This document shows positions 4,126 through 8,917 of a stretch of DNA of 55,572 bases, piece by piece. The notes under the pieces were generated by a model, which was not told the origin of the DNA, did not search any database, and saw only the letters and a program-made list of their open reading frames with translations. Source of the stretch: Bacteroidota bacterium (GTDB lineage: Bacteria > Bacteroidota > Bacteroidia > UBA7662 > JAIXUI01); the NCBI GenBank assembly GCA_027484125.1, contig JAIXUI010000160.1, positions 1 to 55,572 of the forward strand. The letters are read 5' to 3'. How positions within the stretch are numbered: the first letter of the stretch is position 1; every line of letters starts with the position of its first letter. The position numbers and the translations under genes are program-made.

Positions 4126-5738
4126 TCAAATTCATCAAGCACAAATACCTGTTAGTTTGGCTAGGTCTAATTTTAATCATCTTGTTTCTCAACAATAGCA
4201 ACACTTCGTTTTGGGATCAGGACGAGGCTGCTTATGCTGGATTCGCTTTAAGGATGAATGAAACCGGCAATTATCTTGTACCTGATTTTACTTGGAGCGA
4301 ACCACATCGCAAAACTCCTTTCCACTTTTGGAGCATTGCAGGCAGCTATCAATTATTTGGTGCTAATGAGTTTGCTACTCGAATTCCGAGTATCCTCGCC
4401 ATTTTAGGAAGTCTTTTTTCGCTCTATTTCTTAGGAAAAAAGACGTTCGGAAGAGATATAGCTATGTTGGCAGCCTTAATTATGGGAACCAGCTTATTAC
4501 CCAGTTTAGGAAAAGTATCAGTAACGGATGCAACATTGCTCATGTTTGAAACCATTGCCTTTCTGGCTGTTTGGGCTTACATCCAAACTGGAAAATGGAC
4601 ATCGTTACTGTGGCTGTTTTTAACAATTGCTGGTGGAACTTTAGTTAAAGGCCCACCGATTCTTATCGTAACTGGCGGGAGTTTGGCCTTAATGGTGTTT
4701 TTCGGCCCAAATAGAGTTCGCGCTTTCACCGCAGGAATCGTGACGATATTTGGAATTATGCCATTATTGGTTTGGGGTAGAATTGCTTGGTTATCAGACG
4801 GCGGAACCTTTATAAGCTGGTTGATTGATTGGTACATCCTAAAAAGAACTTCGGGAACTGTTTTTGGTCAGACTGGCCCTCCTGGATATTACTTACTTGT
4901 TTTTTTATTAGCATTTTTACCATGGCTTCCTATGTTTGTCCATGCACTTAGGGAATATTTTAAAAATCTATTTTCCAAGGAAAAGAGAAGCAATTTTGAT
5001 TTGTTTCTATTCTTTTGGTTTAGTTGCGGATGGTTCTTTTATGAAATAGTACCCAGCAAACTTCCAGCTTATGCGATTGCCGCTTATCCTGCACTAGCTT
5101 TATTGATGGCAAAATCTATTTTAAGTTTAAATGAAGATCATATAAATACTAACAAATGGATTAAAGGAGGATGGTGGTTGCAAGTTATATTCATTGTAGC
5201 CATCAGTGCTGGATTAATTTTCGGGCTCGCACCCATTCTAAATGAGGAAGGGAAATGGATTTGCTATTTGATTGCTCTATTTCTATTCACATTTAGCATG
5301 AGTCAGCGATTGGCAATCAAAGGTTCCTGGGGCAAGCAGGGCTGGATTTTTTTCCCTGCTTTCGGCCTTGGTTTTCTGCTACTTGTATGGGGGCTTTTAA
5401 TTCCTTCATTTGAGTTTGAGCGTTCTGCAACCAAACGACTTGCGAATGAATTAAAGACTTTAGGCGCACAAGAAGTAGTTATCACGCAAGATTTCGACTT
5501 ACCCAGCTTGCCATTTTATTTGGAACAAAATAAAATACCTTACACAATTCAAGAGACTCCTGAATTGTGGTCCTCAGCGTTCAGCTCAAACAAAAAACGA
5601 CATTTTGTTTTTTCTGAAGACAAGCTCAAGCAGTTTATTGAAAAAGTTCCTCAACAAAAGCGCCCCTCCGTTCTAGCAATTAAAGGATGGGTTTCCGACC
5701 AAGGCAAAACCATGGATTACTTGATAATCACGAATTAA
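4122..5738 (+). CDS. ArnT/PMT-like membrane glycosyltransferase, second paralogue
   Basis: A 538-residue polytopic membrane protein of the same family as the preceding gene but clearly diverged. The catalytic loop reads WDQDEAAYAGF (31-41), followed by RKTPFHFW in place of DKPPLIFW, so the KP pair is altered to KT and specificity may differ. A soluble domain of about 100 residues closes the protein. The start overlaps the previous stop (ATGA). Its 3' end overlaps the convergent lipoprotein gene by 4 bp at 5735-5738, with no visible terminator between the two operons. Confidence 0.86.
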   Translation: MIKFIKHKYLLVWLGLILIILFLNNSNTSFWDQDEAAYAGFALRMNETGNYLVPDFTWSEPHRKTPFHFWSIAGSYQLFGANEFATRIPSILAILGSLFSLYFLGKKTFGRDIAMLAALIMGTSLLPSLGKVSVTDATLLMFETIAFLAVWAYIQTGKWTSLLWLFLTIAGGTLVKGPPILIVTGGSLALMVFFGPNRVRAFTAGIVTIFGIMPLLVWGRIAWLSDGGTFISWLIDWYILKRTSGTVFGQTGPPGYYLLVFLLAFLPWLPMFVHALREYFKNLFSKEKRSNFDLFLFFWFSCGWFFYEIVPSKLPAYAIAAYPALALLMAKSILSLNEDHINTNKWIKGGWWLQVIFIVAISAGLIFGLAPILNEEGKWICYLIALFLFTFSMSQRLAIKGSWGKQGWIFFPAFGLGFLLLVWGLLIPSFEFERSATKRLANELKTLGAQEVVITQDFDLPSLPFYLEQNKIPYTIQETPELWSSAFSSNKKRHFVFSEDKLKQFIEKVPQQKRPSVLAIKGWVSDQGKTMDYLIITN

Positions 5739-6880
5739 TCTGGTCTTCCTATTGCAAAAACAGAAGGATTTATCAGCATGGTTTTGACTTGATTATCCTT
5801 GCTGTAAAGCCTAATCATACCATTAAACTCAATTCTTTGGGTTAATTTCCCATTTCTATCCTTTTCTCCAGAAGATTGTTTAGAAATAACAAATCTTGAG
5901 TCTTGTGGTTGCGCACTTAAATCTGAACTAAACTCCTTGCCAAATTTGTCCCGATAAATCAGTTTTACTTCACCTAATCTTAAAAGAGGATTCACTGGCG
6001 GAGGTGGAATTTGTCGGAAATTGAAATTTGCACGACACATGTTAACTCCTGGTGTGGCAATATTCTTCCTTACTGTTTTGGCACAGCCTCCCATTGTATC
6101 TATAACTTGCATGGTTACGGTGTAAACACCAGGTTGTTGATAACTATAGGTAACAATATTACCGGAAGCTTGAAGTTGACCTCCATCACCAAAGTTCCAA
6201 AGTACAAATGCCCTATTTGAAGCTAATGGCTGATTATTGTGGAGAGGTTGAAATTGAAATGCAGCACTAGCACCAAAAGAACTGGCAGAAAAGTCATATT
6301 GACAAAGCGAATCCTCAGGATGGGTATTTATTGTATTAAGTATAGTGCTGGAGCAACCCGTTGAAAAGTTAACTTTAAGACGAACGGTGTAATTACCATA
6401 ACCAGAATATTGATGACTTGGAGCAGAATGACTCGATGTAGTGCCATCTCCAAAATCCCATTCGTAGTTAATCGGTGCTCCATAACCACTTACTTGTGAT
6501 TGAAAATCTACTTTTACTGATGGTGTAGATTGACTAGTGAGAGCCACAAAATTTCTTTCACCAATGAAAAAGGCTGAATCTGAGTTAAAATCTTCAGGAT
6601 TAATTCCACGACGCTGATTTCGAATTTGAATTTCAAAGCGTTCACCTGAAACTTGATCTTCAAGATTTCCACTAAAAATCATGACATTCAAAGAATCTGA
6701 CAAGGTGGAAGTATACATGTATTTATCGTCTTTACCTGCCATAATCTGGAACTTTTGTCCATCTAACTCTGCGTCTAATAGATAGATTGATTTCCCTTGA
6801 AAAGACTGTGGAATTTCTTTAGAGCAAGCAGTTAGAGCAAGAAAGGCAAGAAAGAACAATCGGTTCACCAGAGTTTCCAT
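5735..6880 (-). CDS. PKD-domain lipoprotein, third gene of the sigma operon
   Basis: A 381-residue exported lipoprotein. The signal peptide ends in lipobox LTAC (C19). A beta-rich N-terminal region (about 30-115) precedes two PKD-like domains marked by WDFGDG (141-146) and WNFGDG (228-233). Paired cysteines occur near 176/193 and 266/282. A C-terminal beta-rich region ends in IGRPD. PKD folds usually mediate adhesion or protein-protein contact at the surface. The start overlaps the anti-sigma-like gene by 16 bp, so translation is probably coupled. It may be the periplasmic or surface partner of that sensor, or a target; the sequence does not decide. No enzymatic motif is seen. Confidence 0.8.
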   Translation of the reverse strand: METLVNRLFFLAFLALTACSKEIPQSFQGKSIYLLDAELDGQKFQIMAGKDDKYMYTSTLSDSLNVMIFSGNLEDQVSGERFEIQIRNQRRGINPEDFNSDSAFFIGERNFVALTSQSTPSVKVDFQSQVSGYGAPINYEWDFGDGTTSSHSAPSHQYSGYGNYTVRLKVNFSTGCSSTILNTINTHPEDSLCQYDFSASSFGASAAFQFQPLHNNQPLASNRAFVLWNFGDGGQLQASGNIVTYSYQQPGVYTVTMQVIDTMGGCAKTVRKNIATPGVNMCRANFNFRQIPPPPVNPLLRLGEVKLIYRDKFGKEFSSDLSAQPQDSRFVISKQSSGEKDRNGKLTQRIEFNGMIRLYSKDNQVKTMLINPSVFAIGRPD

Positions 6881-8166
6881 CTTCCTGATAGTTTAAGCTG
6901 TGAAAAATCTTGAATAGGATCCAAAGTTGAGGAATGCCAATTTCTTCGCTGTCCAATCCAGTAAATTCCAAAATTAAGTTGACTATTCCACGCAAATTCA
7001 TAGCCCAGTTGAACAGAGAAAGAATTATAAAGATTAGAATTTCCGCCCCATTCTTGAGTAGTAATTTTTTGTGATTGCTCGAAATTTGAAACCCTAGTAT
7101 GACTTACTTCGTTAAGCCCATAAATTGGAGTATGCCAGTTAAAACCAGCTGAAATTGCATGAGAGCGATGGAGTTGAATTAACAAACCAATATGTGCAAT
7201 TCCCTCAAGCATCCACAAAGGCTTAAGCTCATATTGACTTCTCCGAAAACCAAAGTCAAAGATTGTACTATCCCAGGTCAATGATTGATCGAGTTGGTGC
7301 TGAGATTGAGCACTTAAACCAATGATAAGACTTGTAGAACGTCCAAGGTATTGGGTTCTTCTCAAACCTAATCCAAAAGCTGAAGAAATAGGTGCCTGTA
7401 TAAACACTTCCAAATCCGTCCTTGATTTTTTCTTAATCGCATCGGTAGTTAAATTTTTACTCTTCTTTCCTATCGAATCAAGAAGCTGCTTATTGAATTC
7501 GGGGCCTAAAACTGCTTCTTCTGAGAGAAGACGTGCTGGTAGTTGATTCAAGATGGCAATTGCCTGAAATTCAATATAGTTTTGAGCGGAATTTTGAATA
7601 GAATCTGGCAACTCAGTCATGAGCTTCTGTTCATTCAGTCTTCCTACTTCCTGCCCTCTCACTGTATTGTTTTTAGTTCTGGATAGGCGTTTTCCAGAGA
7701 ACTTGGAACGCAATCCGAAATTGGAGGCACGAGCTACACCAGTTGGTTGATTGTCCTGATCATGCTTTCTGTTAATGTTGTCATTGTCAGCAGAAGCATT
7801 AACCTTGTTGGTGAAAGCTTTAGTGGCAACTCTATTGGAATCAGACTGATTAGGAATGGGTGAAACAGAAGTTAGAGCAGCTGAGCGCCCATCCGACAGT
7901 TTATCTGCTTTTGAACCAACGCCAAGCTCAGTATGCTGTTGAATTCTTGAAGAATCAGAAAGATTAGACCAATTCCAAGCACCCCATGCCAACAAAAGCA
8001 AGAGTGTGCCAAAAGAAAACCAGCGGAAGAGTAGGATCCTTCTTTTCTTCTTCTCTTCTGCCTCTAACAAAGCCTGAGCTTTTAGCCAATAAGCTTCCTG
8101 ATAACTAAGGTCTGCTTCCTCTAGCTTTCTTTTAAAAAAATCATCGATGGGCTCTTTTTCCATCAT
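6865..8166 (-). CDS. Putative dual membrane-spanning anti-sigma factor (Dma-like)
   Basis: A 433-residue protein with three parts. Residues 1-44 are charged and helical (cytoplasmic, KKKRR at the end). Residues about 45-66 form a single hydrophobic segment. Residues about 67-250 are a hydrophilic Ser/Asn/Asp/Lys-rich linker. Residues about 251-433 show alternating amphipathic strands with Gly and aromatic residues and end in RWKLW, as in small outer-membrane beta-barrels. It overlaps the ECF sigma gene by ATGA, which argues that the N-terminus is the anti-sigma part. I infer one chain spanning both membranes, as described for Dma proteins of Bacteroides. Alternative: a separate envelope protein of unknown role with an inner-membrane anchor. 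The first ATG of a double ATG is chosen because it gives the stop-start overlap. Confidence 0.7.
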   Translation of the reverse strand: MMEKEPIDDFFKRKLEEADLSYQEAYWLKAQALLEAEEKKKRRILLFRWFSFGTLLLLLAWGAWNWSNLSDSSRIQQHTELGVGSKADKLSDGRSAALTSVSPIPNQSDSNRVATKAFTNKVNASADNDNINRKHDQDNQPTGVARASNFGLRSKFSGKRLSRTKNNTVRGQEVGRLNEQKLMTELPDSIQNSAQNYIEFQAIAILNQLPARLLSEEAVLGPEFNKQLLDSIGKKSKNLTTDAIKKKSRTDLEVFIQAPISSAFGLGLRRTQYLGRSTSLIIGLSAQSQHQLDQSLTWDSTIFDFGFRRSQYELKPLWMLEGIAHIGLLIQLHRSHAISAGFNWHTPIYGLNEVSHTRVSNFEQSQKITTQEWGGNSNLYNSFSVQLGYEFAWNSQLNFGIYWIGQRRNWHSSTLDPIQDFSQLKLSGRWKLW

Positions 8167-8726
8167 AGTATTATAGACTTTACGGCTGAAAAAACGCCTT
8201 TCAGCATTTCTTTAAGTTTTGTTCTGGCAAAGTTGACATGCCATTTAGAGGTTCCCTCGCTAATGCTAAGTTTCTCAGCAATTTCTTTATGCGAGTATCC
8301 GTCAATTGCAAACAGATTAAATACAGAACGCGTGACATTCGGCAACTGTCCGACTAGCTTCAAAATTGACTCTGCATCAAGCTTTCGATCGGCTTCGTTA
8401 ACATCTGCAACATTAAACTCTGCAGTAGTTAAATCACCGGTATGTATCATCTCTTTGTACTTCTTATTTTTTCTAAACTCATCGATAACGGAGTTAACAG
8501 TGATTCTTTTAATCCAAGCTTCAAATGGAACTTCCTCGTTATACTTGTCAAGGTTATTAATAACCTTAAGAAAAGCAATATTGAGTAAATCAACAGCATC
8601 ATCTTTACAATCTGCATAGCGATAACAAACTAACATCATGGGTCTGAAACACCGCTCATAGAGCAGCTTCTGCGAACGACGATCTCCGTCTTTGCAGGAC
8701 TTCAGAAATTCATGAGTTACTTTCAT
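8163..8726 (-). CDS. ECF-type RNA polymerase sigma factor
   Basis: A 187-residue sigma-70 family protein with only regions 2 and 4. Region 2 runs from about residue 20 to 90, with FEAWIKRITVNSVIDEFRKN near 68-87 as the core-binding and -10 recognition part. Region 4 lies near 125-175 and contains a helix-turn-helix (GYSHKEIAEKLSISEGTSKWHV). Such factors redirect RNA polymerase to stress or envelope promoters and are held inactive by an anti-sigma factor, usually encoded next to them. Here the next gene overlaps the stop by 4 bp. No TAnnTTTG box is apparent in the 190 bp upstream, which would fit autoregulated transcription but does not prove it. Confidence 0.93.
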   Translation of the reverse strand: MKVTHEFLKSCKDGDRRSQKLLYERCFRPMMLVCYRYADCKDDAVDLLNIAFLKVINNLDKYNEEVPFEAWIKRITVNSVIDEFRKNKKYKEMIHTGDLTTAEFNVADVNEADRKLDAESILKLVGQLPNVTRSVFNLFAIDGYSHKEIAEKLSISEGTSKWHVNFARTKLKEMLKGVFSAVKSIIL

Positions 8727-8917
8727 GTAGTTTGCTATGGATAGCTAAGACAACTTAAAGCTACCTTATTCACGCGAAAACATCCCAATTGGTTGGGTTA
8801 TGATTAAAAAATCACTTAAAGAGGCAGGGAAAATCCTGAGGGTCGATTCTTATAATCAACACGTAAGGCCAAGTAGAAATCGTTGGGTAGGCTAAATAAT
8901 TGCATTAACATTAAGCC

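Follow-up and report, generated by a model that had tools for sequence, protein, structure and literature searches.

How does a cell with two membranes tell a cytoplasmic sigma factor what is happening at its surface? How Bacteroidota perceive ligands or damage at their outer membrane is largely not understood, and to our knowledge no dual-membrane anti-sigma factor (Dma) has a known signal so far. Dma proteins are candidates for a direct line of outer-membrane sensing in this phylum. The window analyzed here, a stretch of 55,572 nucleotides, raises the question for a single locus in which the gene of an ECF sigma factor is followed by that of a 433-residue protein of putative Dma type. We investigated what this protein is, whether its linkage to the sigma factor is kept in relatives, which further gene belongs to the set and what the sigma factor is likely to transcribe.

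An operon of three overlapping genes

The 433-residue Dma protein is encoded in the middle of an operon of three genes on the minus strand (Table 1). The product of the sigma gene matches the Pfam families Sigma70_r2 and Sigma70_r4_2 well over the cut-off; the solved structures nearest to it are SigW, SigH, RpoE and CnrH, and its nearest named relatives belong to Saprospiraceae and Flavobacteriales. The lineage that carries the operon falls within class Bacteroidia or close to it. An earlier prediction made on this DNA (called the original prediction for simplicity) had given coordinates, strand and lengths of the sigma gene and its partner as well as their ATGA overlap exactly. It did not include the third gene of the operon, which encodes a lipoprotein with PKD domains and overlaps the Dma gene by 16 bases. 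A divergent ORF of 160 aa lies on the opposite side of the operon, and housekeeping genes follow further out, among them those of enolase and carA (both identified by eye), rpoA, secY and others.

Table 1. Coordinates of the operon, of its predicted promoter and of the predicted parts of the Dma protein in the window.
Feature	Position	Strand	Basis or remark
Predicted autoregulatory ECF promoter, CCAACC-N16-CGT	8772..8796	-	Comparative; 70 bases before start codon
ECF sigma factor gene, 187 aa	8163..8726	-	Pfam Sigma70_r2 2.2e-13, Sigma70_r4_2 8.9e-13
Dma gene, 433 aa	6865..8166	-	ATGA at 8166-8163 common with sigma gene
Dma residues 1-44, two-helix putative anti-sigma domain	8035..8166	-	Conservation, model, tandem copies in relatives
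Dma residues 45-69, predicted inner-membrane helix	7960..8034	-	Hydrophobic sequence; model helix
Dma residues 70-248, predicted periplasmic tether, largely disordered	7423..7959	-	Low pLDDT, lowest conservation
Dma residues 249-433, predicted 8-strand outer-membrane beta-barrel	6868..7422	-	Model, structural alignment, Pfam matches of relatives
Lipoprotein gene, 381 aa, Cys19, two PKD domains	5735..6880	-	Pfam PKD_4 9.1e-28

Predicted architecture of the Dma protein

An AlphaFold2 model of the Dma protein, built with 30 relatives, reached a mean pLDDT of 71. It contains a helix at residues 7-17 and an unbroken one at 24-69, a tether with pLDDT <50 over residues 74-104 and 106-197 and short helices at 188-207 and 223-233, and C-terminal strands from residue 250 to 431 with pLDDT of about 82-98 apart from one weak block. 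When residues 249-433 were aligned structurally with solved proteins, OprF gave a Z score of 16.5 (rmsd 2.3 Å over 130 residues), and other eight-stranded outer-membrane barrels followed with 15.5 for OmpA (1qjp) and 15.3 each for NspA and PagL. The chain ends in W433. Among the 30 relatives, 17 match OMP_b-brl_2 (best 1.7e-12) and 12 match OMP_b-brl, and most of the relatives have one hydrophobic stretch at the position of residues 45-69. Searches of Pfam and NCBIfam with the 433-residue protein itself returned no usable match; a match to SAVED (0.044) was far under the cut-off of that family and was dropped. The Dma profile run against solved structures found no anti-sigma factor and gave weak porin matches only.

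The architecture claimed originally, i.e. one inner-membrane helix at about residues 45-66, a long hydrophilic linker and a C-terminal barrel with an aromatic end, is recovered in this model: the helix covers residues 45-69, residues 70-248 are predicted to be largely disordered, and the eight-strand barrel of the model, proposed as a check on the original prediction, is closed. The domain order of the modeled chain agrees with the one that PMC13088901 describes for the Dma family, and such a chain would span from the inner to the outer membrane.

A putative sigma-binding module at the N-terminus

Residues 1-44 carry the motif IDxxF...F/L-x-Y-x-E-x-x-W and are the best-conserved region of the protein, with a mean top-residue frequency of 0.42 versus 0.20 in the tether; W27 is kept in 93% of the 30 relatives. 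Tandem copies of the motif occur in relatives, four of them ahead of the membrane helix in Fluviicola sp. XM-24bin1 (L046, 5067-6776) and several in the Dma proteins of loci L039 and L049. Because the motif is repeated at just that position, the copies suggest a discrete binding module, and one such chain might hold several sigma molecules, for which these relatives provide a natural test of the sigma number per chain. The two predicted helices before a single membrane helix resemble the layout of class II anti-sigma factors, among which CnrY binds sigma4 with its first helix and sigma2 with its second (PMC7406223). No sequence link between class II anti-sigma domains and the Dma N-terminus was found in the profile search of solved structures. 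Covariation between the sigma factor and Dma residues 1-44 was determined in 70 pairs: the ten top values sum to 1.76 versus at most 1.49 in 20 shuffles, a weak excess that shared ancestry could explain, and the single top value falls inside the shuffle range. On the basis of the conserved two-helix motif and its tandem copies, we propose residues 1-44 as a putative sigma-binding part.

The sigma factor and the Dma protein are paired across Bacteroidota

To follow the pairing, 84,980 named genomes were scanned with the sigma factor alone, so that the neighboring gene was not selected for. All 80 sigma loci returned bear Bacteroidota lineage names. A gene lies downstream of the sigma gene in 76 of the 80 loci, with its start at most 20 bases from the sigma stop in 65; it overlaps the stop in 45 loci, in 28 of them by exactly four bases. 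The proteins encoded by these genes have a median length of 446 aa, with a single hydrophobic stretch around residues 40-60 in nearly all of them. The ATGA overlap, from which an anti-sigma role had been proposed originally, is kept in relatives. At the level of the phylum, the Dma profile matched in 121 of 296 sampled genomes, part of these matches being plain barrels or short split forms. One split paralogue occurs in the present genome (L002, G000:C38, 882-3037), where a sigma gene is followed by the gene of a 221-residue one-helix protein without a barrel and then by that of a separate 302-residue OMP_b-brl_2 protein; the genome therefore has both fused and split forms.

NigD is a lipoprotein family known from Bacteroidales. 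For comparison, genomes of the class that encode NigD were chosen, and the surroundings of nigD were read. In four loci of Bacteroidaceae type, a sigma gene and the gene of a 409-425-residue protein adjoin nigD. A Dma profile built without these sequences found all four nigD-side proteins with E values of 1e-11 to 8e-8 (hmmsearch, small database), and hhalign against the nigD-side set gave a probability of 98% (E 1.5e-13) over the barrel, the N-terminal region lying outside the local alignment. The original prediction had proposed a homology search against Bacteroides Dma proteins; these matches support homology to Dma/Reo proteins of Bacteroidaceae type. The sigma profile likewise matches the nigD-linked sigma factors of Bacteroidaceae type at 3e-35 to 2e-30. 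The identity of the four loci as EcfO-Reo type rests on synteny with nigD: the sigma and anti-sigma genes of EcfO-Reo are M0N98_03761 and M0N98_03760 (PMC9308784), and nigD (M0N98_03762) adjoins them (PMC13114119). By homology and predicted architecture, the 433-residue protein is a member of the Dma/Reo family with putative sigma binding. The original prediction had seen in it an extension of the architecture to a further lineage; the Dma protein is indeed present here, but its occurrence is expected and not new, because the class has already been published as Bacteroidota-wide and restricted to this phylum, together with a role in vesiculation (PMC13088901).

A PKD lipoprotein is tied to the near Dma subgroup

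The third gene was followed in the 37 nearest loci (L015-L051, called near loci), of which 34 have a readable second gene and 32 remain after exclusion of two in which the contig ends ahead of the third gene. The same lipoprotein family is third in 29 of these 32 loci, and in 26 of the 29 it starts at most 20 bases after the Dma stop. The cultured relative Phaeodactylibacter luteus KCTC 42180 (L016) has all three genes. For the reverse direction, a profile of the N-terminal domain of the lipoprotein only, without the PKD domains, was run against 395 genomes of the class and matched in 70 of them; 30 lipoprotein loci were read, and Dma lies directly upstream (E 6e-37 to 4e-111) in all 29 readable ones, the thirtieth being cut by the contig end. 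With the full-length profile, three near-full-length matches were obtained in 148 genomes of the phylum, all beside Dma, and the remaining matches among those listed covered PKD domains only. The forward (29/32) and reverse (29/29) counts both tie the lipoprotein to the near Dma subgroup.

The modeled lipoprotein (pLDDT 84) has a beta domain at either end of the chain, with two PKD domains between them. The matches listed by the fold search are mainly to PKD-type domains, and the end domains may have known folds. In many relatives, the sequence C-[KS]-K-[DE]-x-L-P begins at the lipid-carrying cysteine (residues 19-26, window 6803-6826); it resembles Bacteroidota lipoprotein surface-export signals. 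More distant sigma-Dma pairs are followed by other third genes: a YceI-like gene (by eye) in the sigma-Dma loci of Mucilaginibacter, Pedobacter and Arcticibacter (L055, L056, L063, L078, L080, L093), and the gene of a Rieske-like protein after sigma-Dma in Larkinella/Spirosomataceae (L067, L071). Genomes of Bacteroidaceae type have DUF4943 as third gene, or NigD nearby. No published report of a Dma protein paired with a PKD lipoprotein was found in the literature covered, which does not extend to the founding Dma1 paper, and the set of Dma, PKD lipoprotein and predicted self-activating promoter appears not to have been described previously.

A conserved promoter motif points to the operon itself

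Of 35 near loci, 23 have the motif CCAACY-N16-CGT upstream of the sigma gene and 24 have the looser form C[CT]AAC[CT]-N16-CGT; 11 lack the motif as written. In 300 shuffled sets of the 35 loci, the motif occurred 0.04 times on average and twice at most, and with the other spacings from 11 to 22 it was present in 0 or 1 near loci. The evidence is comparative, since within the window alone a single match is at chance level. A terminator scan placed the -35-like element inside a small palindrome, CCCAACCAATTGGG (window 8784-8797).

In the 3.33-Mb genome, CCAACC-N16-CGT has 13 sites versus 28 for the reversed control, i.e. there is no enrichment, and a genome-wide regulon derived from this motif was dropped. 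Among the 13, only the site of the operon is intergenic and precedes a gene; the rest are intragenic or are followed by no gene, with the exception of one that precedes a 101-aa ORF running antisense to part of a longer gene. The variant CYAACT-N16-CGT has 30 sites in the genome, two of which (CCAACT and CTAACT) stand ahead of genes for secreted proteins (G000:C90:9954, L123; G000:C101:14704, L126); they could be sigma targets or chance, and we take them as probable chance. In three other genomes, where 30 of 98 sites were read, the motif gave scattered intergenic sites and no common target. As the operon is the chief target indicated by the predicted promoter, the simplest reading is that the sigma factor chiefly serves its own operon by predicted autoregulation, which agrees with the small, self-inducing regulon of P. 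vulgatus (PMC9308784).

Proposed mechanism

We consider it probable, at about 0.75, that the sigma factor, the Dma protein and the lipoprotein form an autoregulated operon working as a two-membrane switch. Most likely, the two-helix N-terminus of Dma would bind the ECF sigma factor and so keep it at the inner membrane, which helix 45-69 would cross. The disordered tether would run through the periplasm to the eight-strand barrel, seated in the outer membrane. If that membrane were disturbed, or a ligand met there, the barrel or the tether would change state, and the sigma factor would be released, either directly, as in the original prediction with no separate protease partner, or after proteolysis, and transcribe its own operon from CCAACC-N16-CGT. 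Apart from the switch components, the PKD lipoprotein would be the chief product. Its place of action would be the outer membrane, where it could be a partner of the barrel, a protective output in the position that NigD has in Bacteroides, or both. The near subgroup would make a small and clean study system, in which the third component is obligate, the promoter is short and defined, and the predicted regulon comprises about one operon.

For the release step, the likeliest course is that the barrel acts as a sensor of assembly, i.e. that failure of its folding or insertion, through trouble with BAM or lipoprotein transport, leaves the chain in the periplasm, where a protease would free the sigma factor with no surface ligand involved; this is a version of the main mechanism, so that their probabilities overlap, and we put it somewhat short of even odds. 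It is favored by the textbook dependence of small OmpA-type barrels on BAM. It also fits the induction of the P. vulgatus Reo system by BcpT and by bacteroidetocin, which blocks BamA (PMC9308784, PMC13114119), but the lipoprotein behind Dma would then need a separate reason. The barrel and the PKD lipoprotein could also form one outer-membrane receptor, with the lipoprotein as dedicated sensing or plugging subunit and Dma as the wire to the sigma factor, an idea that we regard as rather unlikely. If true, the operon would be a complete self-inducing surface-to-cytoplasm receptor and would differ from Dma/NigD systems, where the lipoprotein is output only.

Two further explanations give up the two-membrane chain. 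Cleavage of the tether could closely follow export of the precursor and leave an ordinary one-helix anti-sigma factor and a free barrel to act separately, as the split paralogue in the same genome and the poor conservation of the tether would allow; this is improbable in our judgment, since fusion has persisted in many families despite long divergence and the published Dma/Reo proteins are described as spanning all compartments (PMC13114119, PMC13088901). The gene product could also be a small, otherwise ordinary porin-like protein whose signal anchor is unusual and which has no more than an operon in common with the sigma factor. This would suit a partner that matches no anti-sigma family but is very hard to reconcile with the 44 conserved residues before the helix, the tandem N-terminal copies in relatives and the linkage to a sigma gene at about 76 of 80 loci, none of which is a feature of a signal peptide.

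Comparison with known systems

Dma1-Das1 and Dma2-Das2 of Bacteroides thetaiotaomicron (Pardue 2024, 2026; PMC13088901) have the same domain order and an adjacent ECF sigma gene. The present operon differs from both in its third gene, a PKD lipoprotein found only with the near Dma subgroup, and in its predicted ECF promoter, CCAACY-N16-CGT. NigD is the route of Dma1 to vesiculation, whereas PF12667 (NigD_N) has no match in the present genome; the vesiculation role of Dma1 is for this reason not to be carried over, and the link to vesiculation that had been drawn originally is not supported, the operon itself being the chief target indicated by the predicted promoter.

EcfO-Reo of Bacteroides fragilis and Phocaeicola vulgatus (PMC9308784, PMC13114119) likewise consists of a sigma gene followed by the gene of an anti-sigma factor, there a five-compartment protein, and has a small regulon with lipoproteins in which the EcfO gene is self-induced 33-fold. 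Its outputs are NigD proteins at separate sites, several per genome, whereas here one lipoprotein gene stands directly behind Dma. CnrH-CnrY-CnrX and other systems with class II domains place a short two-helix cytoplasmic part before one membrane helix, as is predicted for the Dma protein. CnrY, in contrast, ends in a short periplasmic part and has a separate sensor protein. Finally, FecI-FecR-FecA signals from an outer-membrane barrel to a cytoplasmic ECF sigma factor, as is proposed here, but it does so with a separate barrel and anti-sigma factor in a TonB-dependent manner, whereas the protein described here would join both functions in one chain with a small closed barrel.
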